Assembly: GCA_913062745.1 (NCBI GenBank)
Contig: CAJXXJ010000019.1
Span: 1-15,473 of the forward strand
Direction of reading: 5' to 3'
Length of the DNA: 15,473 nt
From: an uncultured Phaeodactylibacter sp.
GTDB lineage: Bacteria > Bacteroidota > Bacteroidia > Chitinophagales > Saprospiraceae
In this document: positions 70 to 15,473 of the stretch, one piece after another
Layout: every line of letters starts with the position of its first letter
Position numbering within the stretch: position 1 is the stretch's first letter
Notes under the pieces: generated by a model
Told to the model about the DNA's origin: nothing
What the model saw: only the letters and a program-made list of their open reading frames with translations
Database searches by the model: none
Made by a program: the position numbers and the translations under genes

Positions 70-1512
70 TTACTGACCCAACTGCCCAGCAGCCCAAAGC
101 AGCTTCTGTATACTCTTGAAGAATTTACCCCGCAGCTCCGTAAGCTTGAGTTGTGCCTCAATAAGCTTCTGCTCCCGGGAATTTAGAAGGAAAATGGAGC
201 TCTCCCCCAAGTCGAATTTACGGTATTCTGCATCCAGTAGCCGGCTGTAGTTCTCCACAGCGCCTTCATAGAGTGCGATTTGCTCCAGGAAGTTATTCTG
301 CTCATTATAGTAATTATCCACCTTGTTCTCAATCAGCAGGCGCTTGCGCTGCAGGCTGTACTCCGCATCCTGAATTTTGATGCGCGTCAATTGCAGCTTG
401 CCCCGCTCTTTGCGCAACAGCAGCGGGAAGTCGAAGCGCACCCCCCATTTGTAGTTCTGAGTAACCAGCGCATTCAGCCGCTGATCATCCACTCCACCCG
501 GAATGAGGTTCGTGCCATCCCCCAGCAGGTTGTACTCCAGATCCAGACGAGGCTTAAACTGTTCCAACGCCAGGCGGCGGTCCACATCCAGTTGTTCCAG
601 CTTGATTTCGTATTCCAGAATTTCCGGGTGCGTCAGCAAAGCAGTAGCCGAAAGGGCTTCCCGGCTCTGCGGCAGCGGATCCGGCTCCAATTCTTCCAGA
701 ACGGGCGGCCGCAGCTCATCGGTCACCTCCAGCGGTTCGCCCGCTTCTGTCCAGAGAAAGTTGGATAATTGTAACGTAGCATTCCGATACTCAATACGCG
801 CATTATTGAGGTCGAACATGCGGTTTTGTACCTGAATCATCGTCTCCAGGGTATCAATAGCCGGCAAGTCACCTACCCGGTAACTCTCCACAATACCCTC
901 CATACGCTGCTGTGTGATTTCCAGAGCCCGCTCGAAAACAAGAAGTTGATTGTAAGCAACACTCCAGTTCCAGTAAGCCTCCGCAGCATTCATCAAAAGG
1001 TCGTTGACCATTTTCTGCCGCTCTACTTCATTGGCCTGAGCCATCAGTTTGGCCTGCGCCAAATCAGCCCGCCGCTGATCTATGATCAGCCCTCGGCCAA
1101 TGGGTACTTTTACCCCCAGAATTGCCTGTCCGGCATCCGGTACCCGGCGTTCCGGGTTTTGGTAGAGCGCATCGAGATCAGCAGTGGCAAAAGCCCCTTT
1201 GATCTCCACCCCGTACCAGGTCGGAATCTTTACACCCGCCTCGCCGAAGGCGAAGTAGGTCTTCTCATCAAAAGACTTGGCGTCATAGTCACCGTACAGT
1301 TTTGGGTCAAACCCGCCTCGTGCCAGTTGCTCCAGCGCTTCCGCCTGAACGCCCAGCAGGCGGCCCTGCCGTGCTACCGGGTGGTAAGACGCCACCCAAG
1401 CCAGATAAGCATCCTGAAGCAGCACTTTAGCGGAGTCCAGCGGTTGTGCCTGTGCATCCAGCCCTATGATGAAGCAAAGGGCGATGCCCAACGCTCGGTA
1501 TATCCGTTTCAT
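70..1512 (-). CDS. TolC-family outer-membrane efflux/secretion channel
   Basis: 480-residue outer-membrane factor that should form the trimeric exit duct of the exporter encoded just upstream. The N terminus is a signal peptide: basic MKRIYR, a hydrophobic stretch, and a likely cut after AQA around residue 22. The remainder is rich in long amphipathic helices (for example the EVERQKMVNDLLMNAAEAYW region and the C-terminal half with repeated Leu/Arg/Glu heptads), as in the two-fold repeated OEP domain of TolC proteins, and the length is typical for the family. The ATG at 1510-1512 lies 2 bases after the stop of the HlyD-type gene, so the two are surely co-transcribed and probably translationally coupled. 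It is the last gene of the operon; the stop is TAA at 70-72. Family assignment is firm; the substrate is unknown. Confidence 0.92.
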   Translation of the reverse strand: MKRIYRALGIALCFIIGLDAQAQPLDSAKVLLQDAYLAWVASYHPVARQGRLLGVQAEALEQLARGGFDPKLYGDYDAKSFDEKTYFAFGEAGVKIPTWYGVEIKGAFATADLDALYQNPERRVPDAGQAILGVKVPIGRGLIIDQRRADLAQAKLMAQANEVERQKMVNDLLMNAAEAYWNWSVAYNQLLVFERALEITQQRMEGIVESYRVGDLPAIDTLETMIQVQNRMFDLNNARIEYRNATLQLSNFLWTEAGEPLEVTDELRPPVLEELEPDPLPQSREALSATALLTHPEILEYEIKLEQLDVDRRLALEQFKPRLDLEYNLLGDGTNLIPGGVDDQRLNALVTQNYKWGVRFDFPLLLRKERGKLQLTRIKIQDAEYSLQRKRLLIENKVDNYYNEQNNFLEQIALYEGAVENYSRLLDAEYRKFDLGESSIFLLNSREQKLIEAQLKLTELRGKFFKSIQKLLWAAGQLGQ

Positions 1513-1514
1513 GC

Positions 1515-2903
1515 TTACTTAATATTTTTCGCGGGCGCCTTGAACTGTATCCGGTCAGAATCTTTTTCCACTTCCAGCGTACGGCCGTCGTAGTAGTCTG
1601 GTGGAAATCCGTTAAGGCGCCGCCAAATTTCGTACCAGACCGGCACATTATCGAGCAGGGCGATGCCCTGTGCTCCGGAGCCAACGCGCAGCTCTTCCGG
1701 CCATTCTTCCGATTCCGGGTCAGGCCCTACCAGAATACGATATTCCCCTTTGGAGCTGATCATATTGTCAATCGCCACAACCCGGCCCTTATAAGTACCG
1801 AACGACTGCCCGGGCCAGCCGGAAAAGATAAAGGCAGGCCAGCCATCAAAGATAAAACGGACCTCCTGCCCAATATCGACCAGGGGCAGATCCATAGGTT
1901 TGATATACAGCTCCACCGCCAGCTCATATTCCGCCGGCATGATCGTCACAATGCCATCGCCCTCCTTGACTGTTTCGCCAATACCAGGCTTGATCGCTTT
2001 GGTGATGTAGCTCTTCTGTGGTGCCACTATATAGTAAAACTGACTCCGCTGAGTGTAGTTGGAGGCCTGGATGCTTAGCTTTTGCACATCGCCCTGTGCA
2101 TCAGCTATTGTGGACTGCGTACTCGCTATTTCCGACCGGACTTTGGCGATTTTTTCAGCATACTCGTTCGTGACATTTTGCAGGTCCAGTTCGGCAATCA
2201 TCAGCTCCTGCTCAGCTTCCTCTACGTAGTTGCGTTTGGTAACCAAATTGGCGGCGGCCTTTTGCTTTTTGTCCTGCATGTCTTCCACCTTGGTACGGGA
2301 AGCAATACCGTCCTCAAACAGGCTGCGCTGACGCTCCAGCTGACGCTCAGCGATTGAGTCCTGTATCACAGCCTGCTGATAATCGGCTACGGCTGTCTGA
2401 AGGGTCAGCTCCTTTTGCGTGATCTTGTTTGCGAGCTGACGCCTTTTGAAGATCAGCTCTTGTTGCATCGCATCGATCTGCTCCCGCAGAGCATTGATCT
2501 TGTTTCTGTACTCGCTGATTGCTTCCTCCTTAGCTTCCACCTGCCGCTCGGTACGGGGTACCAGCTCGGGGTCAAAGTACTCCGACTTGATTTCCGAGAG
2601 GAAGACGATCGTATCGCCTTTTTCCACCAGCTCGCCTTCCCGGACGTACCACTTTTCAATACGGCCCGGGATAGTCGCCTGTATCGTTTGCGGGCGCTGC
2701 CCCGGCTGCAGGGTGGTCACCTCACCTTTAGACTGAATATTCTGCGTCCACGGCAAAAACATGAACACCAGCACCAGCAGCATCGTGAACAGCAGCCAAC
2801 GGATGAACATCCGGTTGGCATTGGAAAGGACGGTTCCCCGGAAAGAGTTGAACCGGCTGAATTCTACTTCCTGGTTGACGGTATTTTTTGATATGTTCAA
2901 CAT
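1515..2903 (-). CDS. HlyD-family periplasmic adaptor (membrane fusion protein)
   Basis: 462-residue adaptor linking the inner-membrane ABC subunit to the TolC-like channel. Features in order: a cytoplasmic N terminus of about 30 residues, one transmembrane helix (about 32-51), the first half of a barrel-sandwich (lipoyl-like) domain (about 72-104, with ATIPGRIEKWYVREGELVEKGD), a long alpha-helical hairpin (about 118-285), the second half-barrel (about 290-323, VAPQKSYITKAIKPGIGE), and a C-terminal beta-barrel. The hairpin tip carries R191-x3-L195-x6-S202 (RQRSLFEDGIAS), matching the R-L-S motif by which adaptors dock onto TolC proteins. The C terminus has a Trp/Pro-rich stretch (PVWYEIWRRLNGFPPDYY) that I recall from Bacteroidota adaptors of this kind. 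The gene starts 4 bases after the ABC gene and ends 2 bases before the TolC-like gene. It resembles type I-secretion adaptors more than RND ones because of its ABC partner and N-terminal helix. Confidence 0.92.
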   Translation of the reverse strand: MLNISKNTVNQEVEFSRFNSFRGTVLSNANRMFIRWLLFTMLLVLVFMFLPWTQNIQSKGEVTTLQPGQRPQTIQATIPGRIEKWYVREGELVEKGDTIVFLSEIKSEYFDPELVPRTERQVEAKEEAISEYRNKINALREQIDAMQQELIFKRRQLANKITQKELTLQTAVADYQQAVIQDSIAERQLERQRSLFEDGIASRTKVEDMQDKKQKAAANLVTKRNYVEEAEQELMIAELDLQNVTNEYAEKIAKVRSEIASTQSTIADAQGDVQKLSIQASNYTQRSQFYYIVAPQKSYITKAIKPGIGETVKEGDGIVTIMPAEYELAVELYIKPMDLPLVDIGQEVRFIFDGWPAFIFSGWPGQSFGTYKGRVVAIDNMISSKGEYRILVGPDPESEEWPEELRVGSGAQGIALLDNVPVWYEIWRRLNGFPPDYYDGRTLEVEKDSDRIQFKAPAKNIK

Positions 2904-2907
2904 AGTT

Positions 2908-4704
2908 CTAAGAGCTTGATTTTACCTGCCCGGAGACGTGGTGTCCGTTTCCGGAGCTTTTGGAACTGAAATTACGCGTCCAGGTAAATACATTATTAAA
3001 GTGCGGGCCTGCCAGAACATCTTCAAATGACCCCTGCTGCACGATTTTGCCTTCCTTCATCACAATGACGCGGTCACAGCGGGAAGCCAGCACCGGGTCA
3101 TCGGTCACGGTGACCATCGTCCAGTTATGCTGACGATCGGTCAGGAAGTCGGAAATCATCTCCCGGTCCTCCTGCTCAATGCCGTAGAAGAAGCCTTCTA
3201 CCGCCAGCATGCGAGGCTTGGAAATAATACAGCGGGCCAGGATGATGCGGGTACGGATGCTCTGCGGCACATTACTGCCTTCCGGCAAAAGCATCGTCTC
3301 ATAGCCTTCGGGCAACCTATCCACATAGTTGCTCAACCCGATCTGATTGGAAATGCGGATCACTTCCTTGAGGTCCACATCCGGGATACTGAAGGTAATA
3401 TTCTCCAGTATCGTCCCCCGGAAGATATCTTCCTGCGCCGAGTAGTCGCCGATTTGCTGCCGCAAACTGTGGATATTCAGATTGCGGACCGGAAAACCGT
3501 TGTAAGCTATTGTCCCGCGGAAATCAGTGTATAAGCCTGCCATGATTTGCAGCAGCGTCGATTTGCCGGAGCCATTATAGCCCGCTATGCAAATGCGCTC
3601 ATTAGCCTTGATAGACAGGTTGATATTATCGAGCGTGTTCTTTTTGGAATCATGAAACTGAAAAGCCAGTTGTTCCAGTTCTACTTCGATGCCATTCCCC
3701 GTGTCGATTTGCTCAAACATGCGGCCGTCTTCATCCTCGATCGGTAAATCCGTAACTGCACCCAGCTTTTCCAGTCCAGTGAGCACATCGTAGATGGTTT
3801 CCATGCTCAGGATAAGCTTTTCCACAGAGTTCATTACCAGAATCACTACAATCTCTGCTGCCACAAACTGACCGATGTTAATCTGATTATTGATCACCAG
3901 GTAGGCTCCCAAAAACAGCAGGCCGGCCGTAACAATAGTCTTGAAGGCCACGATATTGCCATACTGAAATACCAGAATACGGAAGTGTTTTTTCCGGGCT
4001 TCCAGATAATCACATACCAGGCTGTCGGTCTTGTTGAGCGAAAAAGTATTGCCGCCAGCCAACTTGAAGGTGTTCATCGCTCGGGCGATCTCTTCCAGCC
4101 AGTAAGCTACTTCGTATTTGTACTTCGACTCTTTGAGGCTCGTCTTCAGGCCGCCCGGCCCGGTGATCCGGAAAATCAAAATAAGGATCACAATAAGCGC
4201 CATGCCGAAAAAGACAAAGAAGGGGTGGTAGAAGGAGATCAAAATCAGGCCGAAGAAAATCTGCAGCACTGCCGTGGAGAAGTCCATGAGTATTTTCGGC
4301 ACCCCTTTCTGCAAAGTCAGGGTATCGAAAAAACGGTTGACCAACTCCGGCGGGTAAAACCGAACCACCTCATCCAGCTTGATACGCGGGATACGGTATG
4401 CGAAGTCGAACGCGGAGCGAGCAAAAATGCGCCGCTGAATGGTTTCCGTCACCGTCAGCTGCATCACTTTAAGAATGCCGGACAAAGTTGTCGCAATAGT
4501 GACAATAGCCACTAAAATGACCAGGGAGGCAGAAAGCGCCCCTCCGGCAATGAGCCCGATAATAGCCTGTACCCCCAGCGGGAGGCTCAGGGTGATCAGG
4601 CCTGCGAAAATCGCATAAATATAAATATAGTAGATATCCTTCTTGTCCAGCTCCAGCAGCCGAAAAAAGCGCTGCAGCGGACGAACGGAACCATAATCTG
4701 CCAT
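2908..4704 (-). CDS. ABC half-transporter (TMD-NBD) with degenerate ATPase motifs
   Basis: 598-residue exporter half-molecule. The membrane domain has about six hydrophobic segments (roughly 27-50, 60-78, 143-160, 163-180, 250-272, 278-298). It is followed by a nucleotide-binding domain from about residue 338. Walker A is intact (GYNGSGKST, 375-383) and a Q-loop Gln is present (Q424). The rest is altered at gap-free aligned positions: the LSGGQ signature reads VPQSI (479-483) inside an otherwise normal GxN-RxRIxLAR frame; Walker B Asp-Glu is E503-G504; the D-loop SALD is YGIE (507-510); the switch His is D535 in VTVTDDP. No peptidase C39 or C39-like domain precedes the membrane domain. It is first of three tightly packed export genes, 183 bases after tetR. 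The inferred role is the inner-membrane engine or scaffold of a tripartite exporter; whether it hydrolyses ATP alone is doubtful. Confidence 0.9.
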   Translation of the reverse strand: MADYGSVRPLQRFFRLLELDKKDIYYIYIYAIFAGLITLSLPLGVQAIIGLIAGGALSASLVILVAIVTIATTLSGILKVMQLTVTETIQRRIFARSAFDFAYRIPRIKLDEVVRFYPPELVNRFFDTLTLQKGVPKILMDFSTAVLQIFFGLILISFYHPFFVFFGMALIVILILIFRITGPGGLKTSLKESKYKYEVAYWLEEIARAMNTFKLAGGNTFSLNKTDSLVCDYLEARKKHFRILVFQYGNIVAFKTIVTAGLLFLGAYLVINNQINIGQFVAAEIVVILVMNSVEKLILSMETIYDVLTGLEKLGAVTDLPIEDEDGRMFEQIDTGNGIEVELEQLAFQFHDSKKNTLDNINLSIKANERICIAGYNGSGKSTLLQIMAGLYTDFRGTIAYNGFPVRNLNIHSLRQQIGDYSAQEDIFRGTILENITFSIPDVDLKEVIRISNQIGLSNYVDRLPEGYETMLLPEGSNVPQSIRTRIILARCIISKPRMLAVEGFFYGIEQEDREMISDFLTDRQHNWTMVTVTDDPVLASRCDRVIVMKEGKIVQQGSFEDVLAGPHFNNVFTWTRNFSSKSSGNGHHVSGQVKSSS

Positions 4705-4887: not shown

Positions 4888-5646
4888 CTAGGAATGTTGC
4901 AATCCATTGTTTTGATGTACGTTAACATTGCCGTTAGATTTAGCGGAAGCACCGCTCGGCGGCTGCCCGGGCTGCACCAGTCTCCAGGCAAAATAACATA
5001 GAAGTTCTTCCACCTGTTCCAGCGTGTCCTCCTTTGCTTCCACCTCCGTCAGCCGGGGCAGGTGCTCTGCAAAGTAGATATGGTTATTAGCCATTTCCAG
5101 CAAATTGCTCGCCAGAGAGCGAGGGTACGGAAAGTCCGGGTTATTCTCCTGAATGACCTTGGCTACCTTTTCGCAAAGTGCCTTGTAAGAAACGAAGAAG
5201 CCTTCCCGGTTTTGTGCATCCACCAGCTTATTGTGGTAAGCTTTGGTGCCCTCTGCCACAACGATGCGGTGCAACACGTCCTCATCGATAAACGCAATAG
5301 TGGTATTGCGCTTGGCCGTATCCACAATACAACTGATCACCGCCTTTAGCCGTTCGGCAGGCACTTCCATATCGATCAGCTTGATTTCTATCCGAAACCG
5401 CATCCACTCCCAGTACCAGTTGACCAGGTACAGCAAGAGCAGATGCTTGTTTTCAAAATAGCGATAGATTGAGGCTTCTGTAGAGCCGATCCGCTCCGCC
5501 AGGCGCTTAAAGTTGAAGCGCTCCAGGCCCAGCTCATCGATCAGAAGGATACTGTACTGCAGTATCTTTCGCCCCAAGTCCGTACGCTGCGGATTGGTCT
5601 TGTACAGTTTTTCATTGATTTTTAACTCTACGGATAAGAGTGCCAT
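4888..5646 (-). CDS. TetR/AcrR-family transcriptional regulator
   Basis: 252-residue one-component regulator. The N-terminal DNA-binding domain covers about residues 22-72, with the typical helix-turn-helix around FNFKRLAERIGSTEASIYRYFENKH (45-68), ending in the usual YRYFENK recognition-helix signature. The rest is helical and should form the ligand-binding and dimerisation domain; it is diverged, so no ligand can be named. The C-terminal 25 residues are low-complexity and polar. It is slightly longer than the common 190-220 residue TetR proteins, through an N-terminal extension of about 20 residues and this tail. It lies 33 bases after the sigma-factor gene and 183 bases ahead of the exporter genes, in the same direction. 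TetR proteins often repress the exporter next to them, so it is the likely local regulator. A 19-bp palindrome 25 bp upstream of its start is a candidate binding site. No Shine-Dalgarno sequence is visible. Confidence 0.88.
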   Translation of the reverse strand: MALLSVELKINEKLYKTNPQRTDLGRKILQYSILLIDELGLERFNFKRLAERIGSTEASIYRYFENKHLLLLYLVNWYWEWMRFRIEIKLIDMEVPAERLKAVISCIVDTAKRNTTIAFIDEDVLHRIVVAEGTKAYHNKLVDAQNREGFFVSYKALCEKVAKVIQENNPDFPYPRSLASNLLEMANNHIYFAEHLPRLTEVEAKEDTLEQVEELLCYFAWRLVQPGQPPSGASAKSNGNVNVHQNNGLQHS

Positions 5647-5670: not shown

Positions 5671-5689
5671 GCTTAACGATTAGTTAAGC
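5671..5689. promoter_or_regulatory. 19-bp palindrome, candidate TetR operator
   Basis: Perfect inverted repeat GCTTAAC-GATTA-GTTAAGC with 7-bp arms and a 5-bp centre. It overlaps the last codons and stop (5680-5682) of the sigma-factor gene and sits 25 bp upstream of the tetR start. Size and symmetry suit a TetR dimer. Its right half ATTAGTTAAGC (5679-5689) recurs exactly at 6296-6306 in the sigma leader. It could instead form an RNA hairpin at the sigma stop codon, but no T-run follows on the coding strand, so it is not a standard terminator. The regulatory role is inferred. Confidence 0.45.
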
Positions 5690-6213
5690 AATTCATTAAG
5701 GTTCCTGGATTGATACATTCCCTTCAGTCCTTGTTGCAGCTTCTTGCGGGCAAAGAAGATGCGGCTCTTCACGGTGCCGAGAGGGATATCCAGCTCAGTG
5801 GCGATTTCATCGTATTTGAAGCCCTGATAGTGCATCATGAAAGGCACCTTGAGCCAGTCTTCCAGCCCGTCCACCAGCTTGGTGAGCTCTTTCATCGTCA
5901 CTACAGACTCGCCTCCGTTGAAGGCCGTGCGGTCTCCTGAATTGAGGAAGTAATTATTGTTGGTGTGATCGTTAAGCGTTTGCCGCCGCTTCTTTTGGCG
6001 GTAATTATTGATAAAGGTGTTGCGCATGATCGTCATCAGCCACGCACGCAGGTTGGTGTGCGGCTTATACATACTGCGGTACTTGAACGCTTTGTATGCA
6101 GTGTCCTGCAGCAAGTCCTGCGCTTCTTCCTCATTTTTGGTCAAATGACAGGCGAAGGAAAACAGCATAGACTCAAAACGGCAAAACGACTCGGTGAATT
6201 CAATCTGTGACAT
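5680..6213 (-). CDS. ECF-type RNA polymerase sigma factor (sigma-70 family)
   Basis: 177-residue group 4 sigma factor. Region 2 spans about residues 10-77: LFSFACHLTKNEEEAQDLLQDT, then the FKYRSMYKPHTNLRAWLMTI segment for -10 recognition and core binding, and NTFINNYRQKKRR. A non-conserved linker (about 78-108) leads to region 4 (about 113-163), where YDEIATELDIPLGTVKSRIFFARKKL is the helix-turn-helix for the -35 element. There is no C-terminal extension. Notably no anti-sigma gene follows; the next gene is tetR, 33 bases downstream and in the same direction. It would redirect RNA polymerase to an unknown regulon, possibly including this cluster. The ATG at 6211-6213 is chosen because region 2 begins soon after it; a second upstream ATG is out of frame. 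Family assignment is secure; the stimulus is unknown. Confidence 0.93.
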   Translation of the reverse strand: MSQIEFTESFCRFESMLFSFACHLTKNEEEAQDLLQDTAYKAFKYRSMYKPHTNLRAWLMTIMRNTFINNYRQKKRRQTLNDHTNNNYFLNSGDRTAFNGGESVVTMKELTKLVDGLEDWLKVPFMMHYQGFKYDEIATELDIPLGTVKSRIFFARKKLQQGLKGMYQSRNLNELLN

Positions 6214-6514: not shown

Positions 6515-9500
6515 CTACCGGGCAAGAACGAATTTTTGTGTCCAGCTCTGAGTGCTGCTTTGGAAATGCAGGAGGTATACCCCATCAGCGGGAAGTTTCT
6601 TTACCGGAAGCTCCCAGTGGTTTGCCCCTTCTGAGCACTGCAGCTCATCAGCCAGCAAAGGTTGCCCTTGCAAATCGTACACGGAGACCTTTACCTGCTC
6701 TGCCCGGCTCAACTCGAAGTAGAGTGTTGCTGCTTCGCGTACCGGATTGGGTGTCAGCACCGGCACCGCGTAGGTATTGTTGAAAGAAAGGTGCAGGTAC
6801 CGCTTGCGAAGCTGATCGTCATAGGCTTCCGGCCTCAGGGGCCCATCCGCCAGGTGCAGCGCATCGGACAGCTTGCCGGATTGCAACACCTTCAGGTGCA
6901 GCGTAAACAAGCGGTGCTTTCCGGATTGCTGACTGCCCGTCCAGCTTACCGGCAACTGCCCGGACGGCAAGTGCCGGGCGTTGAAGTGGGCTTCCGTCAG
7001 CACACCTTCTTCCACACGCTCCAGGGTTACCCGGTTAATGTCCACATCCAACAGGCCCTGCAACCCAATGAGTTGATTCATATCTGCATAAACCGGAACG
7101 CGGACGCGCTGCCCGGCTTGCAGCCACTGTTCTTCGGCCTGCAGCACATGGGCCATTTCATAGCGGGGCTCCAACTGTCCGGACTGTGCAGCTACTGTGG
7201 AGCTGTAATCGATATCCCCCATCTTGATGGCTACAAAGTCTTCAGCCAGGAGTTCGCCCTCCAGCTCATCGTAGTAGATGCTGTTCGGTATCGGGCTGGC
7301 CCAGGGGTTATCCGGGTTAATAAATTCGTGGCTTTTCGGCACAAAGCGCCAGCTGTCGGTATTCGGAAACTCGGTAATGATACTCAGGATCACCTGCCGC
7401 AGCTGCAGAATATCAAGTGTACTGATTGAGCCGGAATTATTGACGTCGGCTGCCAGGAATTTGTAGGGAGAATCAAAAGGAGTCCGGCCCAGCACATGCT
7501 GATTGATCAGTGCGATATCAAAAGTACTGAGCCCATTCTGATCGTCTCCGTCCTTAGAAGGTGTAAGCGTATAGCTGTAGCCGGATTCCAGATCGTCCAG
7601 CACATATTGCCCCAGCGAATCGGTCAACACCTCACTCGTCAGGTTTCCCGTAAGGGACATCAGCACACCGCCCACGCCCACTGAGTCCGGCCGCTCCACT
7701 GCTCCCGCAAGCAAGGGCAGTTGCTCATCACAATCGGCAATATTGTCATTAACGACGATGAAGGTTTCGCAGTTATCGTAATTCGGCCCGCCAATGCTGC
7801 CATCCGGCTGTACGGCAAAGGGGTTGCCGGCGGCATCCCAGGCGTAGATTTCTACCAGCAGCACGCCGAGGTCGTCACAGGTGACGATCATTTCATCCTG
7901 ATTGATATCCGGCGTCTCCCCTACCCGGTTGATGGAGTACCGCAGAGGCATAGAGCAATCGATGTATTCGCTGACGATAAAATCTTCCGCGAATACATTC
8001 AGAGCCCCCCGGTCAATATCTCCGTCACCATCTGCGTCCGTTTCCGGGAACAGCGGCATCAGCGAAAGAGAAATGCCATTCAGGCAGGCCGGTGCAGGCG
8101 CTTTGCAATCTACAATTTCAAAGGGCAGGGTAGCTGAGGCTACATTTCCACAACCGTCTTCCACCACAATCTTAAATTCATGCATCCCGATCGGGTAGTC
8201 GCCGCTGATTTTGTACTTCGGGTAAGTCCCGAAAATATCATTAAGGACGGTATCAATCGTACCGTCTGCATACTCGTCATAAAACACCCGGATATCCAGG
8301 TCATTGGGCGTACAATCGTCGGAGATGACGATGGGGAATTCGGCGGGCGCCCGGCAGGTAGCGTTGTTGTTGCTGCAGATGGGCGGGAAGTCCGGGAAGA
8401 GGATTTGGGGTGCCACAGTATCGTACACCAGCAAGTGCTGTTCGTATTGCCAGAAGCCTCTTGATACGGTATTGCGCCAGAAGCCCTGCGGGTTGGTCTG
8501 CCCGGTACAAATCGTTCCTTTTTGACCCGCAGCCGGGTTGTTGTTGAATGGCATGTCATCCCGGTCTACGAAAGCCTGATCCGGGTGGCGGATTACCCAG
8601 ACGTCTTCATCTCCGGGGTTCTCATCGCAGTCCTCATCGCGGCTGATGACCACCGGTTCGGACTGGCCGTCGTATTCACACCAATTGATGACCCGGTAGG
8701 TACGGAAAATTTTATAGCACTCATCCCCGGAAGCTGAGAAAAGGGTATCGGTAACACTGACGGCGAGCAGGTCACAGGCTTGCTCAAACACTTCGATGGT
8801 ATCCGCATTAGGCGCGCCGCAGTTTTCGTAGCCATCCTCCGGGAATTTGATCAGATAGTCATGCTCTGCGGTCAGGGTCACGGTCTGATTGCAGATTTGC
8901 AAAGCGGAGGTATTGCCGGAAGCATCCACTGCCCTAAACCTCCTGATCAGCGTTCCGACTCCACAATCATCGATATCGCTGACGGGGGGAAGTTCCTGCC
9001 AGCTTGCACCGCAGTTATCGATTGCGCCCGGTTCGCCGAAAAGCGCTCCCAGCAGCGCCAGGCTGTCCGCCGAAAAGCCCGGAGGCAAGTCCGCACAGCT
9101 CATCGTTACCGGATCGGGCGGCAGGCAGCTGGGGTTCGTTTTATCTTCCACCAGCACTTCGGTAGCGCAAACATTGGTATTCCCTGCGGTATCAATGACC
9201 AGCAGCTCCACGCCCTGCAGAGTGTTGATTTCACAGCAATTGAAAGTCACCGAGGCAGACCAGGGCGTAAAGAAAGGCGCGACGGCCTCGCAGTCTTCAT
9301 TGAGCGTCACACGCCTGCGCACCGCCAGGCTGTCGATGCCACAGTTATCCCAGCTCCCTTCATTGATGTGATTGGCGAACAGTCGGGATTCACCGTTGCC
9401 GCCCAGCGACACAATTACTTCATCATCGCAGATGGCTACCGGGTCTGACTCGTCTTCCACACAGAATCCACATTCCAGCACAGAAGTATTGCCGCAGTCG

Positions 9501-11941
9501 TCTGACACAATGTAGCGGAACCGATGGCAGCCGGAAGGGATACCCGCTACCGTTTTATTGGGTACCGTTGCCGGCACGCTCGCCAGCACCACGGTATTGA
9601 CCACAGTATCTACCGGCTGGCCGAAATCGTTGAACACAATACTATCCTCATCGGTCACAACTTCCACGGCAAAAGACCAGTTTGAGCAATTGTCAACCAC
9701 CTGTGGGGCAGGCACCACAAATGCAGCCTCACATTCAAAAGATGCCGCAGGATACACCAGCTCATCCGGGAAGCCGTCGCCGTCGATATCCACCACCGGG
9801 CACTCCACTTCCGGTGCGGTAAAATCACCGATTTTGATGATTTGAGCATAGACTTCAGTATTAGCCGGCTCGCACCAGTCGATGATCGTCCACCGGCGCA
9901 CAAACTGGAAGGAAGAGGGGCACAGTTCGATATTCGGGCCGTCCTCGTAGGTGGCTCCCAGATTGCAGTAGTCGTCCCGCAGGTCAATAGCGCCCTGCGC
10001 GGTCAGGATGAACGGATAGCCCGTAAACTCCGGGTCCGGGCCGCCCAGCTCGTCCAGCGGAAAGTCTTCATCGCACTCGATAGGCATGGTAAAAGGAGGC
10101 AGGAGTACATCTTCGATGCCGGGGCGGCGGAAGTTTATATTTTGAATGCAGTTCGACTGATTGCCAGCTTCATCAGTCGCCCGGAAGAAGCGGCGGATGC
10201 GCAGGCTGCCGCAGTCGCCCTCCTCTTCCGGTATGTCATTAAAGGTAAGCAACGATTGCGAGCAGTTATCCGATACTTCCGGAGCGCCCGTCCACTGCAG
10301 GCTATCGGCGTTTTGCACGAAAGTGACATCATTGCAATACAGTGGGTAAGTCAGCAGGCGGCTTTGCTGCGGAAAGCCGATGATGCTGCCGCCGTTATCT
10401 GACAGTATCGCGTACTGATAATCTCCCGTTTGCCCGGGTTCATCGCTACTGGTCAGCAAAAAGTAGGATTGCCCCGGGCGAAGTGGGAGCGCGGTCCGCA
10501 ACAGCGGGTTGTTGCCTCCTCCAAGCGGGTTGCCGGCCTGCGGGAAGTCAGCCTGCCCGATAATATTGGTACAGGGGCTCAGTGGATTGAAGCTACGCTG
10601 GAATACCGCCATATCGGCTTCAAAGCCTGCTTCCAGAAAGAAAGTGTAAACATCTTCGGCATCCACTTCAAACTCAATAAGTTCGTAGTGGCGCGCTCCC
10701 GGGCTGGCGAAGTTTTCAATCAGGCAGGAATACAACTGCGTGCTCAGCAGCGGGTCATTTTCGTCGAGCGAACCCGCAATTATCTGCAGGTCGGTGTACA
10801 GCGTAGCGGTTTCGGTATCTTCCGGGCAGATGAGCGTGGGCGGCTGCTCATCAAGGGCCGTTACTTCCCCCCAGCAGGGGAATAGCAAGCCAGGGTCAAG
10901 CCCTGTGAAGGAGGCGGAAAAAGCAGTAACAACGGCCTTTGCGTTCCCGTTGCCGGCAAGCTGCCACACCAGGCTTTGCCCGGCAGAAAGGTTGATGTTA
11001 GCGGTTCCGGCATCATTAATGCCGCCCACGACAACGGTGCCGGCCGGGCTGCCGTCACTTCCGATAATCAGCCCGGAAAAGCTATGGCTGCCCCCGTCAG
11101 ATTGAGCAGCCCAGCTCAGGCTCAGGCTGGCGTTAAAGGGTGCCGAGTAAACTGCCACTGCGGCATAATCGTCGCTGTCGCCTGAAAGAATGAGGCTGTC
11201 AGCAGTATGTACCACTGTTCCGCCGCCGGTGCCCAGTGTAGACCACTGCTGTGGCCTGAAGCTGCCGGTGAAGCCTGCTACAGGTGCCGGTTGGACAGGC
11301 TGCAGTTCATAGTCATAAGTTCCGGGGCCATCGATCAGCGGGCCGTTCGCCGGGGTATCGTCCAGTACTGTGATTTCAAAATACTCTGCGGGGTAGCATC
11401 CGATATCGCCCTCCAGCACCATATCAGGCGTCAGCCGTCGTTGGCAGGCGTCGTTTAGTGCTACAGTGATGGCATCATTACAGGCGTAATTGGCACCCGG
11501 TGCAGGCTCCTGCGTCACTTCCACCGGCAGGGACAGCGACTGTTGGTTGCCGGAGAGGTCTGTAGCGGTAACTTCTACCGTGTAGGAACCGGCAGGTGCT
11601 AAAAGCAGATATTGCCGATTATTAAGCGGTTCAAGGTATAGGCCATCGGAAGCAGCCACACTGAGCTGAGGGTCGGGGTCGCAGTTATCGGAGGCGGTAA
11701 CCGAAAAGAAGAACGCCTGGCTGCCGCCGTTTTCGCAACCGGAAAGAGCGGCCTGAAATCCATTGACCGGGGCTACAAGCACGGGGGCAGTACTGTCCTC
11801 GTCACAGTCACTTGCCGAAGCAGCGGCTGACGGCGAGGCAAAGCCGGGCCTATCTCCATCCAGCCAGACACGGCCAGATGCCAGCAACAGCACTATCGCT
11901 GCACCGAAAACAAAACTGTAAAGCGTACTCCGATCTACCAT
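6515..11941 (-). CDS. Giant secreted multidomain protein: HYR/Ig-like, dockerin, cohesin-like, T9SS sorting domain
   Basis: 1808-residue protein from the chosen ATG (11939-11941), preceded by AGGAG five bases upstream and starting a good signal peptide (MVDRSTLYSFVFGAAIVLLLASG). In-frame ATGs up to 12013 would add 24 non-signal-like residues. Domains: a HYR-like Ig repeat (TATDLSGN) near the N terminus; two beta-sandwich modules, the second resembling bacterial pre-peptidase C-terminal domains (about 10380-10830); a long Cys-rich series of DNC-type repeats; Asp-rich calcium motifs (DIDGDGFPDE, DADGDGDID); a CarboxypepD-reg-like sandwich; a dockerin type I pair (NGLSTFDIALINQHVLG and DVNNSGSISTLDILQLRQVI, about 7380-7545); a cohesin-like sandwich (about 6840-7145); and a type A T9SS C-terminal domain (LTPNPVREAATLYFEL to QKFVLAR). 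It should cross the outer membrane by T9SS and be surface-anchored or released. No catalytic domain is recognised; adhesion or matrix function is inferred. It is paralogous to the upstream neighbour. Confidence 0.88.
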   Translation of the reverse strand: MVDRSTLYSFVFGAAIVLLLASGRVWLDGDRPGFASPSAAASASDCDEDSTAPVLVAPVNGFQAALSGCENGGSQAFFFSVTASDNCDPDPQLSVAASDGLYLEPLNNRQYLLLAPAGSYTVEVTATDLSGNQQSLSLPVEVTQEPAPGANYACNDAITVALNDACQRRLTPDMVLEGDIGCYPAEYFEITVLDDTPANGPLIDGPGTYDYELQPVQPAPVAGFTGSFRPQQWSTLGTGGGTVVHTADSLILSGDSDDYAAVAVYSAPFNASLSLSWAAQSDGGSHSFSGLIIGSDGSPAGTVVVGGINDAGTANINLSAGQSLVWQLAGNGNAKAVVTAFSASFTGLDPGLLFPCWGEVTALDEQPPTLICPEDTETATLYTDLQIIAGSLDENDPLLSTQLYSCLIENFASPGARHYELIEFEVDAEDVYTFFLEAGFEADMAVFQRSFNPLSPCTNIIGQADFPQAGNPLGGGNNPLLRTALPLRPGQSYFLLTSSDEPGQTGDYQYAILSDNGGSIIGFPQQSRLLTYPLYCNDVTFVQNADSLQWTGAPEVSDNCSQSLLTFNDIPEEEGDCGSLRIRRFFRATDEAGNQSNCIQNINFRRPGIEDVLLPPFTMPIECDEDFPLDELGGPDPEFTGYPFILTAQGAIDLRDDYCNLGATYEDGPNIELCPSSFQFVRRWTIIDWCEPANTEVYAQIIKIGDFTAPEVECPVVDIDGDGFPDELVYPAASFECEAAFVVPAPQVVDNCSNWSFAVEVVTDEDSIVFNDFGQPVDTVVNTVVLASVPATVPNKTVAGIPSGCHRFRYIVSDDCGNTSVLECGFCVEDESDPVAICDDEVIVSLGGNGESRLFANHINEGSWDNCGIDSLAVRRRVTLNEDCEAVAPFFTPWSASVTFNCCEINTLQGVELLVIDTAGNTNVCATEVLVEDKTNPSCLPPDPVTMSCADLPPGFSADSLALLGALFGEPGAIDNCGASWQELPPVSDIDDCGVGTLIRRFRAVDASGNTSALQICNQTVTLTAEHDYLIKFPEDGYENCGAPNADTIEVFEQACDLLAVSVTDTLFSASGDECYKIFRTYRVINWCEYDGQSEPVVISRDEDCDENPGDEDVWVIRHPDQAFVDRDDMPFNNNPAAGQKGTICTGQTNPQGFWRNTVSRGFWQYEQHLLVYDTVAPQILFPDFPPICSNNNATCRAPAEFPIVISDDCTPNDLDIRVFYDEYADGTIDTVLNDIFGTYPKYKISGDYPIGMHEFKIVVEDGCGNVASATLPFEIVDCKAPAPACLNGISLSLMPLFPETDADGDGDIDRGALNVFAEDFIVSEYIDCSMPLRYSINRVGETPDINQDEMIVTCDDLGVLLVEIYAWDAAGNPFAVQPDGSIGGPNYDNCETFIVVNDNIADCDEQLPLLAGAVERPDSVGVGGVLMSLTGNLTSEVLTDSLGQYVLDDLESGYSYTLTPSKDGDDQNGLSTFDIALINQHVLGRTPFDSPYKFLAADVNNSGSISTLDILQLRQVILSIITEFPNTDSWRFVPKSHEFINPDNPWASPIPNSIYYDELEGELLAEDFVAIKMGDIDYSSTVAAQSGQLEPRYEMAHVLQAEEQWLQAGQRVRVPVYADMNQLIGLQGLLDVDINRVTLERVEEGVLTEAHFNARHLPSGQLPVSWTGSQQSGKHRLFTLHLKVLQSGKLSDALHLADGPLRPEAYDDQLRKRYLHLSFNNTYAVPVLTPNPVREAATLYFELSRAEQVKVSVYDLQGQPLLADELQCSEGANHWELPVKKLPADGVYLLHFQSSTQSWTQKFVLAR

Positions 11942-12503
11942 AGTTGCTCCTGTCATTGTCAGAGGTATTCCTGCTGCCCGGTGCTTTTGAGTGGCGCCCG
12001 GCATACAGACCATCTGTGAATGTGCAAGTTAACACAATTGTATTTGCTTTGAGCATTTGCCCAATATCTGCTTTTGCAGCGAATGCTACAAACACCCTGC
12101 TAAGGCCTTAAAATTGATGTATGCTTATCGTGTTTATTTTCTGTGCCTGGGAAAGCTACGCAGACGCTTAAATGATGCCAGAGCACCACTCTGCTCTATG
12201 TCTGCGCATTCACTCCGAAGAAGACCACCACAGTGTGGCAGGCTGAGAACCCGGGCATTTATAATCCGGACCCCTTCAGAATGCGTGTAGGTGGAAGGGT
12301 AACGGGTACTGACTCCTTCACGCTACATGGTGATAACGATTGATTGTATAATCGGTTGATCTAAATCTGCAGCATACTGCAGCCCCTTAACAGGGCAGAT
12401 AAATCCATGGGGTAGATGAAAACATGGTTGGGGGGAGTAATCTTATGGAAGCGAATATAAGAAAAATAAATTCGTTCGCGCGGTTTTCATAGCCTGACAA
12501 ATT
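11942..12503. other. Non-coding interval between the two giant paralogues
   Basis: About 560 bases without a convincing gene; a 77-codon plus-strand frame (12057-12290) has no recognisable motif. The interval must hold the promoter of the 6515-11941 gene. The best candidate on the minus strand is TACAATTG (12035-12042, one mismatch to TAnnTTTG) with TTGG (12061-12064) 18 bp upstream, giving a leader of about 85 bases. Small dyads include AGAGCA/TGCTCT (12180-12197), CCAC-AGT-GTGG (12228-12238) and the double CTGCAG (12367-12382). No tRNA, CRISPR or insertion-sequence end was seen. Confidence 0.4.
12035..12064 (-). promoter_or_regulatory. Weak promoter candidate for the 6515-11941 gene
   Basis: The minus strand reads TTGG (12061-12064), an 18-bp spacer, then TACAATTG (12035-12042). 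This is one base away from the Bacteroidota -7 consensus TAnnTTTG, with a partial -33 element. The start site would fall near 12029, which favours the ATG at 11941 over the upstream ATG at 12013. Sequence match only. Confidence 0.3.
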
Positions 12504-12547: not shown

Positions 12548-15473
12548 TTATTCTGTTATAATCATCTTTCTGGTGGCGACCTGATTGCCCATTTGCAGGC
12601 GGTAGTACAGCAGGCCATTGCGCACCGGAAGCTCACTGAGCTCATGGCGCTGCAGGCTTACTTCATTGTACCCTTTCGCATAGTCGCCTTCTATGACGCG
12701 CAGCAGGCGCCCGTTGATATCGAAGAGGCTGATTTCCGCAGGACCGGATTCCGGCAGTTCGAAGCCAATCACCGTTTGTCCGCGAACCGGGTTTGGCCGG
12801 TTTTGATACAAGCGGAAAGTGCCCTCTGCCGTTGCTGCCTGCCGGAAGCGCAGACGCACGTCCATATGCTCGCCTTCCCAGCTGTATGCTTCGGCTGCTG
12901 TGCGCTGCGAGGTAATTTGCAGCTGCTCACTGAGTAGCTGGCCAGGCAAAGCAAGCGGGCTAACGCGGAAGAACAGGCGGAAAAGCTCCTGTTTGCCTTC
13001 CTGATGGCGTGGCTGCACCGCAGCAGTTTCGTACCAGCTGGCGGTCAGCTGGCCATCATTGGCAGCGTACAGGCCCAGGCTGTTTTCGTCTGCAAGGCCA
13101 TAGCTGGCCTCTTCAAACTGCAGCAGCGCCGGGTCAAAATCAAGCGTAAACTGATAGCCCTGTACGGCTTCTTCAGCATCCATATAGAATGGCACCTCTA
13201 TCAGGGTGCCCGGCTGCAATTCCTGCTCCTCTGCTTCCAGGTAGAAAGCATTGGCAAAGTTGCGGTCCTCGAGCTGCCCGGACTGTGCGGCAGTAGTGGT
13301 GGCCGTGTTATTGACGTCTCCAATCTTGATCGCGACAAAGTCGGCGGCCATTTCGTTCCCGTTCAGGTTATTCACCGTGATGACTTCCGGGAAGTAGGTA
13401 AACCACGGGTTTTCCGGATAAGGGAAGACATAATCCTCAGCGACAAAGCGCCAGCTTGTATTGTTCGGGAACTCCAGAATCTGCCCCAGAATCAGCTGCT
13501 GTATCTGAATCATATCCAGCGTAGTGATGGAGCCGGAGCGGTTTACGTCGGCGGCAATCCGCTTGTAAGGCCCCTGCAGCGGTGTCACCCCTAGCAAGTG
13601 CTGCTGAATGATGATCAGGTCAAAGGTAGACACGCCGTTGCGGTGCTCATCGTCGCGGAAAGGCGTAACGGTGTAGTCAGCGCCCATCGGCAGGCTGTCA
13701 AAGGCGTAAGTGCCGCCTGAGCCGGTCATCATTGAAGTGCTCATCATACCACTCAGCGAGACTTCCACTGCTTCCACTGCATCATCGTTTTCCCGCATAA
13801 TCTGCCCGGCCATCATCGGCATTGGGCTGCTGCACAGGTTGTTGTTATCGGTGATGTAGAGATAGGTTTCGCAGAAGCCCCAGTTGGGCCCGCCTACGGT
13901 TCCGTCTGGCTGTACCGCTTCCGGATTGAAAGCACTGTCGTAGAAGTAGACTTCTACTTCCACCAGGCCGACATCATCGCAGGTGAAGTAAATCGCTGTC
14001 TGATCCATATCCGGCTCTTCACCCACCAGGTTGATGGAGAAGGCAATGGTATCGTCACTGCAGTCCGCCACACTGAGGTGGAAGTCGTTCGCCCAGATAC
14101 CCGCACCGGCTACGTCAAATTCGCCATCGCCGTCAATATCGGTATTCGGCGCCAGCTCCTGCAGGTTGAAGGTCAGCCCGTTCAGGCAGGTGAAAGTCGG
14201 CGCAGCGCAGTCGACTACATCAAACGGCAGCGTCGCAACATTAGTATTATTGCCACAACCGTCCTGTACGGTCACTACAAACTCGTGGCTGCCAATCGGG
14301 TACTCTCCGCCAATGACGTAGTTCGGATAAGCACCGCTCAGCAGCGGCGTCACATCGAAGTCGATCGTGCCGTCCGCTTTAGCGTCCAGCTCTACGGTGA
14401 TCTGAAGGTCATCCGGAGAACAGTTCTCTACTATAGTAAAGGGATACTGAACAGTTGCATTGCAGGCTGTCTGATCAATGCTGCAGAACTGATCCGGCTC
14501 GGTAAAGCTGACTTGCGGCGGCGTGGAGTCCATCACTTTGATGATCTGTGTATACTCCCACAGACCTACTGAGTTGACGGTGCGCCAGTAGCCTGCCGGG
14601 TTGGTATTACCGTCGCAGTTGGTCGACTTCGTACCGAAGGCCGGCACTTGATTATTCGGGTTGTTATCCCGGTCGATGAATACGGTAGTCGGTGTACGCA
14701 CCACCCATACATCCTCGTCTCCCGGCTGCATGTCGCAGTCCTCATTGCGGCCTACGACCACGGCGCTGTCCTGTCCGTTGTACTCGCAGTGATTCAGCAC
14801 GCGGTACTTCCGGAAGATGGTGTAGCACTCCGGGCTATTGCCTGAGGTTGGGTAGAAGATTTCCTCCGTTACGCTGACAGAAAGGTCATCGCAGCCCAGC
14901 CCTTCGACCTCGATAGAGTCCGGATCAGGCACTGCACAGTCGGAAATTACATCCTTCGGGAACTTGATGGTGTAGTTGAACTCGTTTGCGATCGTCACCA
15001 CCTGCTGACAGGTATTGGTAGAAGCGTTGCCCTGCGCATCGAAGGCAGCAAACTGACGGATGATGGTACCTACCCCGCAGTCATTGAGGTTAACTACCGG
15101 TGGCAGCTCCTGAATGCTCGTAGTGGAGCAGTTGTCATCAGCTGTTGCAGCGCCGTAAAGTGCATCAAGCCCTGCGGTGTCGAACGGATCGAAACCAACC
15201 GGCACATCAGCGCAGGTAGTATTTACATTGGCCGGTGCAAAGCAGAACGGCGTGATCTTGTCTTCTATCAGTACCTCGAGCCAGCAAATGTTTTCATTAC
15301 CGCTTTCGTCAATCACTTTCAGTTCGATGGTCACCATCTGATTGACATCACAGCAGGTGAAGTCAACGAAGCCGGCCCACTCGCTGTAGTAATCCGGCAC
15401 ATCACTGCAGTCAGTCGGATCCAGCTCAATCAGGCGGCGCACAAGTATGGTGTCCACTCCGCAGTTGTCATTG
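12548..15473 (-). CDS. Giant secreted paralogue (5' end beyond window): HYR/Ig-like, dockerin, cohesin-like, T9SS sorting domain
   Basis: C-terminal part (about 974 residues) of a second giant protein. The frame stays open to the window edge: the bases before the internal GTG at 15457 encode NDNCG, matching DNCG at the equivalent place in the 6515-11941 protein, so that GTG is not the start. Modules: Cys-rich DNC repeats; conserved blocks such as NPGDEDVWV-like QPGDEDVWVVR; a calcium motif DIDGDGEFD; a CarboxypepD-reg-like sandwich (about 13655-13815); a dockerin pair (NGVSTFDLIIIQQHLLG and DVNRSGSITTLDMIQIQQLIL, about 13487-13643); a cohesin-like sandwich (about 12900-13250); and a T9SS type A domain starting at YQNRPNPVRGQTVIGFELPE. 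It aligns with the neighbour nearly end to end, so the missing part may be some 900 residues long. Likely exported by T9SS to the surface; the function beyond a structural or adhesive role is not visible. Confidence 0.88.
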   Translation of the reverse strand, partial: NDNCGVDTILVRRLIELDPTDCSDVPDYYSEWAGFVDFTCCDVNQMVTIELKVIDESGNENICWLEVLIEDKITPFCFAPANVNTTCADVPVGFDPFDTAGLDALYGAATADDNCSTTSIQELPPVVNLNDCGVGTIIRQFAAFDAQGNASTNTCQQVVTIANEFNYTIKFPKDVISDCAVPDPDSIEVEGLGCDDLSVSVTEEIFYPTSGNSPECYTIFRKYRVLNHCEYNGQDSAVVVGRNEDCDMQPGDEDVWVVRTPTTVFIDRDNNPNNQVPAFGTKSTNCDGNTNPAGYWRTVNSVGLWEYTQIIKVMDSTPPQVSFTEPDQFCSIDQTACNATVQYPFTIVENCSPDDLQITVELDAKADGTIDFDVTPLLSGAYPNYVIGGEYPIGSHEFVVTVQDGCGNNTNVATLPFDVVDCAAPTFTCLNGLTFNLQELAPNTDIDGDGEFDVAGAGIWANDFHLSVADCSDDTIAFSINLVGEEPDMDQTAIYFTCDDVGLVEVEVYFYDSAFNPEAVQPDGTVGGPNWGFCETYLYITDNNNLCSSPMPMMAGQIMRENDDAVEAVEVSLSGMMSTSMMTGSGGTYAFDSLPMGADYTVTPFRDDEHRNGVSTFDLIIIQQHLLGVTPLQGPYKRIAADVNRSGSITTLDMIQIQQLILGQILEFPNNTSWRFVAEDYVFPYPENPWFTYFPEVITVNNLNGNEMAADFVAIKIGDVNNTATTTAAQSGQLEDRNFANAFYLEAEEQELQPGTLIEVPFYMDAEEAVQGYQFTLDFDPALLQFEEASYGLADENSLGLYAANDGQLTASWYETAAVQPRHQEGKQELFRLFFRVSPLALPGQLLSEQLQITSQRTAAEAYSWEGEHMDVRLRFRQAATAEGTFRLYQNRPNPVRGQTVIGFELPESGPAEISLFDINGRLLRVIEGDYAKGYNEVSLQRHELSELPVRNGLLYYRLQMGNQVATRKMIITE

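Follow-up and report, generated by a model that had tools for sequence, protein, structure and literature searches.

In the textbook view ABC exporters are powered by the binding and hydrolysis of ATP; degenerate sites, where known exporters have them, are usually found in heterodimers. Type I secretion and peptidase-containing exporters (LssB, TIGR03375; HlyB; PCAT1) share with the protein described here the fold of a membrane domain (TMD) followed by a nucleotide-binding domain (NBD), as well as HlyD and TolC partners. The reports found of ion-coupled transport by exporter membrane domains alone rest on engineered truncations (PMC2704374, PMC6155054, PMC4979069). In the available portions of those papers, the NBD-less constructs LmrA-MD and MsbA-MD carried out proton-coupled transport, the TM6 Glu E314 of LmrA was needed for the part driven by the pH gradient, MsbA-MD performed less well than the full-length protein, and an assay in which LmrA with Mg-ATP gave a current showed none for LmrA-MD.

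The window, i.e. the whole stretch of DNA analysed (15,473 nucleotides), carries on its minus strand, in this order, an ECF sigma factor (5680..6213), a TetR-type regulator (4888..5646; domain match and locus comparison), a degenerate ABC half-exporter with TMD and NBD (2908..4704; 598 aa; open reading frame, PF00664 plus PF00005, AlphaFold2 model), a HlyD-type periplasmic adaptor (1515..2903; 462 aa) and a TolC-type outer-membrane channel (70..1512; 480 aa), the last two from open reading frames and domain profiles. The half-exporter, HlyD and TolC genes are only a few bases apart, and adaptor and channel genes are thus linked to the exporter as in tripartite ABC-HlyD-TolC systems. A linked ECF sigma factor was present in the genus and in a few other relatives, and its belonging to the export system is uncertain. 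Two very large surface-type proteins (6515-12013 and 12548-15457, minus strand; 1832 and at least 969 aa), alike by eye, have HYR-like repeats, a dockerin-like stretch and a C-terminal sorting-like domain. In five relatives (L031-L035), too, a long gene lies upstream of the ECF sigma factor, coding for 1734 aa (where the stretch ends within it) to 1852 aa.

The AlphaFold2 model of the 598-aa protein had a pLDDT of 79 overall and of 81-96 in NBD blocks. Its Foldseek matches were type IV exporters (TMq 0.54-0.69 among the 50 matches listed), with PCAT1 as the top PDB fold match and HlyB at rank 10 among the matches listed; the closest PDB match by sequence was BSEP. The best NCBIfam match, TIGR03375, reached 198 bits (cut-off 693), and TIGR01846 reached 173 (cut-off 726), so that the protein falls outside both subfamilies. 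Pfam recognised no peptidase domain in it.

Residues 355-565 align without gaps with the first NBD of BSEP, and the motif columns correspond to those of five canonical half-exporters in the alignment. Walker A (GYNGSGKST, residues 375-383; 3556..3582) is intact. The signature LSGGQ is replaced by VPQSI (479-483; 3256..3270), the Walker B Asp-Glu by E503-G504 (3193..3198), the D-loop SALD by YGIE (507-510; 3175..3186) and the switch His by D535 (3100..3102). The open reading frame and these residues were present as an earlier note on this DNA had described them, but its Q-loop Gln (Q424) was off by one: the gap-free register places the canonical Gln at A423 (3436..3438), and it is lost. Gln occupies column 423 in 5/5 canonical exporters vs. 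10/207 core relatives (defined below). A Walker A-bearing NBD (PF00005) is present in the window protein and absent from the NBD-less clade described below. By fold and descent the window protein is an ABC exporter; having neither LSGGQ, Walker B Asp-Glu, Q-loop Gln nor switch His, it would on sequence grounds not belong among active ABC ATPases. By the known chemistry both composite sites would be impaired, as the earlier note held, since the signature and Walker B/His are lost on the same chain.

A search at E ≤ 1e-20 returned 7996 proteins, which will include ordinary ABC exporters, and the best 120 were examined and aligned. These were 61-90% identical to the window protein and had the same losses. 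The core set comprised 207 distinct sequences (211 before removing identical rows), a similarity-biased sample in which some genes occur twice in near-identical form, as protein and as locus. Signature (scored as S480 with G482), Asp-Glu and His were all lost together in 204/207 core sequences, with the signature kept in 2, Asp-Glu in 1 and the switch His in none. All 22 canonical orthologues in the same genomes carried LSGGQ, DEA and IAHR; with three main losses shared so widely, this argues that the losses are not due to chance. Within the order, 25 of 39 genomes had a match at E ≤ 1e-99, whereas the next-best ABC protein stood at 2e-36, which sets the family sharply apart.

The odd residues are themselves conserved: N478 and D/N535 occur in all 120 distinct close sequences (window included), E503 in 114 and P480 in 111, which argues for selection on a changed domain and not for gene loss. 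Across the core, position 503 was Glu in 158/207 and position 504 was acidic in 95/207 (Glu in 31, Asp in 64). The earlier note's interpretation stood in part. The odd motifs do characterise a family of Bacteroidota half-transporters, and homologues beside HlyD and TolC, aligned at the motif columns, have the same losses, so that the window gene is not a decayed copy; canonical homologues in the same operon setting were sought, and the core group yielded the one Asp-Glu and no His. Gly504, proposed as a further loss of this copy alone, is instead common (78/207 core and 69/120 close sequences, window included), and this claim fell together with that of a retained Q-loop Gln.

Gene neighbourhoods were compared in 145 loci: the window with the loci of 24 relatives (25), 40 loci from 39 genomes, and 80 loci from named genomes. 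HlyD adjoined the gene in 142/145 (25/25, 39/40 and 78/80) and TolC in 136/145 (24/25, 38/40 and 74/80), and a TetR relative was linked in a substantial minority (12/25, 15/40 and 33/80); these counts depend on thresholds set for single queries or profiles, so that distant relatives of the TetR, TolC and ECF genes will be missed. HlyD was absent from L128, L204 and L225, and TolC from the same loci plus L040, L130, L194, L200, L205 and L210. Some of these loci stop at a contig end, which is not the case for L040, L128, L130 and L204. The TetR linkage suggests that the substrate would be a small toxic molecule. In L047, L049, L050, L051, L155 and L156 the HlyD and TolC genes have a small open reading frame (125-132 aa) between them. 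Of the 296 genomes in the phylum sample, 75 carried the family (ABC profile, E ≤ 1e-60), and the same 75 matched the HlyD profile (E ≤ 1e-40); the best ABC and HlyD matches were on different contigs in G312 and G320. Wider loci were examined for 39 of the 75 carriers, besides G000 and G011.

The 25, 40 and 80 loci examined showed no canonical half-exporter next to the gene, and a catalytic partner encoded there was therefore rejected. The other ABC-type genes in these loci were seven: two UvrA, two without a membrane-domain match (496 aa, cut, and 585 aa, with LSGGE) and three small ATPases (244-285 aa). There was also one weak NBD match (18 bits) in locus L118.

A deeper sister group (12 sampled) kept Asp-Glu (12/12), His (10/12) and the Walker A Lys (12/12), with an often non-standard signature (S480 with G482 in 5/12), and the tree separated it from the core with support 100/100. 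As the sister group retains Asp-Glu and His, the ancestor of the family was probably catalytic, the whole core family having departed from it; the tree was midpoint-rooted for drawing, and this polarity from catalytic ancestor to loss holds if the root lies between sister group and core. An extra N-terminal region of 144-266 aa precedes the membrane domain in L121-L125 and in most of the sister group (L126, L127, L129-L134, L141). It is possibly a worn peptidase-like domain; five such regions (L121, L125, L126, L130, L132) had no Pfam match. In two sister-group loci a UvrA gene lies directly upstream of the exporter gene (L132:1090-4050 and L133:6932-9790).

The membrane domain (residues 1-336; 3697..4704) is the better conserved part of the protein and the sole part retained in the NBD-less clade. 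In 22 genomes holding both proteins, mean pairwise identity in the family was 57% for TMD and 38% for NBD, the reverse of the canonical half-exporter (51% and 69%). NBD identity was lower than TMD identity in 230/231 genome pairs for the family vs. 4/231 for the canonical protein, pairs that are not independent. Among six close relatives dN in the NBD was about 1.3-3 times that in the TMD, and was the greater in 15/15 pairs, with dS near saturation in most pairs.

In four genomes of the phylum sample (four of the matches in the 75 carriers) a membrane domain of 333-339 aa occurred without NBD and was followed by HlyD and TolC. A scan of named genomes gave 38 NBD-less loci (330-369 aa) out of 80; as these were the best 80 of at least 591 confirmed stretches, ranked by likeness to an NBD-less sequence, the ranking favours the NBD-less form and 38/80 is no prevalence figure. 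Two of the 38 are the same genes as two of the four from the phylum sample, leaving 40 distinct loci (42 rows before deduplication). The hosts are Mucilaginibacter, Pedobacter, Chitinophaga rhizophila, Paraflavitalea, Dyadobacter, Hymenobacter, Fibrella, Fibrisoma, Larkinella, Spirosoma and some metagenome-assembled genomes. HlyD was downstream in 38/38 scan loci: in 29 the two genes have one and the same short overlap, and in the others HlyD starts no more than 122 bases away, so that an NBD would not fit between them. TolC was downstream in 37/38. The best 120 protein relatives of one NBD-less sequence were 316-356 aa long, the species-named ones mostly from Hymenobacter.

The NBD-less rows tested (nine) formed one clade (support 100/99) nested in the family and sister to a full-length member. 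Several independent NBD losses had been considered, as the genus of one NBD-less genome (G204) also has a full-length copy (G110, L137), and were rejected, since the tree places the nine rows together and L137 elsewhere. Hymenobacter has a full-length degenerate copy in Hymenobacter sp. BT190 (L229) and H. gummosus (L235) and NBD-less copies in others, which indicates two family lineages in this genus. Two NBD-less members matched PF00664, the exporter membrane domain, and the Foldseek matches of an NBD-less model (mean pLDDT 73) were PCAT1/HlyB, with TMq 0.55-0.79 among the 50 matches listed. Median dN/dS in the clade was 0.19 and the maximum 0.31 (102 of 703 pairs, those with pS < 0.70), which argues that the NBD-less genes are under purifying selection.

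A search with an NBD query found no family-type NBD elsewhere in the four NBD-less genomes, and a split gene with its NBD at another site was thus not found in them. The top match in each genome lay at E 1.6e-22 to 2.9e-18 (24-29% identity; open frames of 583-726 aa), a level expected of ordinary half-exporters, compared with 6.7e-44 for the family NBD of the control genome G227. Shorter ABC ATPases matched at weaker E-values, as in any genome.

Overall TMD conservation was higher in the NBD-less clade than in the core (0.64 vs. 0.52), and in blocks of 10 residues the clade was more conserved in all but 211-220 (0.27 vs. 0.41). In steps of 7 residues the biggest drop in conservation after NBD loss was at 212-218, with smaller drops at 202-208 and 147-153. 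Residues 210-216 (4057..4077), a short helix in the AlphaFold2 model, are taken as coupling helix 2 from the model and from conservation. Coupling helix 2 is the loop that docks on the NBD in other exporters. Relaxation of a docking loop at 212-218 would be expected if no NBD, own or borrowed, docked there.

Several charged TMD residues are kept with and without NBD and absent from the five canonical exporters (K133, K196, E284, E295, K296); E284 (3853..3855), an acidic residue of TM6, is I, F or L in those exporters. Others (E87, K137, D141, D306, K313) are matched by a residue of like charge in one to three of the five, the conserved acidic D306 (3787..3789) being Glu in 2/5. D306 precedes the Walker A Lys by 75 residues, compared with 74 from E314 to K388 in LmrA, a likeness by residue counting only. 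The conserved TMD charges are mostly already present in the sister group that retains Asp-Glu and His. As they mostly predate NBD loss and some have canonical counterparts, ion coupling need not be what they evolved for, and their candidacy as ion-coupling sites is a lead only.

The reading tentatively favoured here is that the window protein is the inner-membrane subunit of a HlyD-TolC tripartite exporter that has abandoned its ABC motor and transports without ATP hydrolysis, most likely coupled to an ion gradient. We infer a lack of ATPase activity; in NBD-less members the transport cycle cannot run on its own ATP hydrolysis. The membrane domain would transport the substrate, presumably as a homodimer in the manner of other half-exporters, and pass it to HlyD and TolC, the energy coming perhaps, by analogy, from a proton or sodium gradient through the conserved charges. 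Passive conduction or a scaffold role would fit the sequence data equally well. The NBD of the window protein would be a remnant that still folds and may retain nucleotide binding in a structural or regulatory role, even this remnant being gone from the Pedobacter/Hymenobacter/Spirosoma clade. It is possible, if open to doubt, that a natural lineage switched from ATP hydrolysis to ion-gradient drive while keeping its HlyD-TolC conduit, with graded steps preserved: Asp-Glu and His kept (sister group), a dead NBD (window), the Walker A Lys lost, and the NBD gone.

Nucleotide binding probably still matters in full-length members, given their well-predicted NBD fold, a Walker A Lys kept in 189/207 core sequences and an A-loop aromatic (F or Y at position 350) kept in 191/207. 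These features, together with the conserved N478, P480 and E503 and the LmrA ion current started by ATP binding and not by hydrolysis in the available portion of PMC6155054, agree with full-length NBDs that bind ATP without hydrolysing it and so gate a passive or ion-driven membrane domain. This reading is rather unlikely, as a whole clade has no NBD and the Walker A Lys is gone in 18/207. Fifteen of these have Arg (GRAT/GRVT/GRST; P0018, P0020-P0025, P0027, P0028, P0094, P0104, P0111, P0114, P0117 and L199), a further step from nucleotide chemistry. Improbable is catalysis supplied by an unlinked canonical half-exporter in a heterodimer, or by a shared ATPase. Heterodimers with a degenerate site are known (TmrAB, TM287/288 and MsRv1273c/72c, from their titles and abstracts), and canonical half-exporters and other ABC ATPases occur elsewhere in these genomes, NBD-less ones included; but the loci examined hold no canonical half-exporter, one chain has lost site residues of both kinds, and NBD-less members, with their relaxed docking loop, supply no half of an NBD dimer. 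The earlier note's dependence on an unlinked ATPase found no positive evidence, with no canonical half-exporter beside the examined operons and a persisting NBD-less clade, though full-length members might still use one.

Hydrolysis by a non-canonical route, with E503 or nearby acids standing in for Walker B and His, could draw on the frequent acids at 503 and 504, but it is quite improbable given that the losses of signature, Q-loop, D-loop and His coincide, that 504 is Gly in the window protein and in other core sequences, and that the NBD can be missing altogether. A decayed or misassembled gene would account for the loss of all catalytic motifs but Walker A; it is scarcely credible with 120 relatives sharing the losses in intact operons, low dN where dS is near saturation, and NBD-less genes that occur in many isolates at the low dN/dS given above. 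Decay of one copy is refuted for the family by the shared losses.

The abandoned-motor reading concerns more than a single odd gene: the observation is of a conserved lineage which, by the sequence criteria tested, appears to have moved off ATP hydrolysis and which ends in natural NBD-less members. This suggests that evolution can shift a classic ATP-driven pump toward another power source. If true, NBDs first dead and then missing in cultured isolates of Pedobacter, Mucilaginibacter and Hymenobacter, among others, would offer native proteins for tests as well as evolutionary intermediates. Searches of the open-access literature turned up no description of a naturally NBD-less or fully degenerate ABC-HlyD-TolC system.

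Compared with LssB, HlyB and PCAT1, the window protein has no LSGGQ, Asp-Glu or His, and one clade of its family has no NBD. TmrAB, TM287/288, PatAB and MsRv1273c/72c, compared by title and abstract, likewise combine degenerate catalytic residues with a fold that is otherwise intact; unlike in those systems, signature and Walker B/His are here lost on one chain, and the loci examined hold no partner half-exporter. LmrA-MD and MsbA-MD, as far as the available portions of their papers describe them, resemble the NBD-less members in being exporter membrane domains without NBD, with a functional TM6 Glu in LmrA. They are, however, laboratory truncations without HlyD or TolC, whereas the NBD-less state of this family is natural, occurs in many genera and is operonic.
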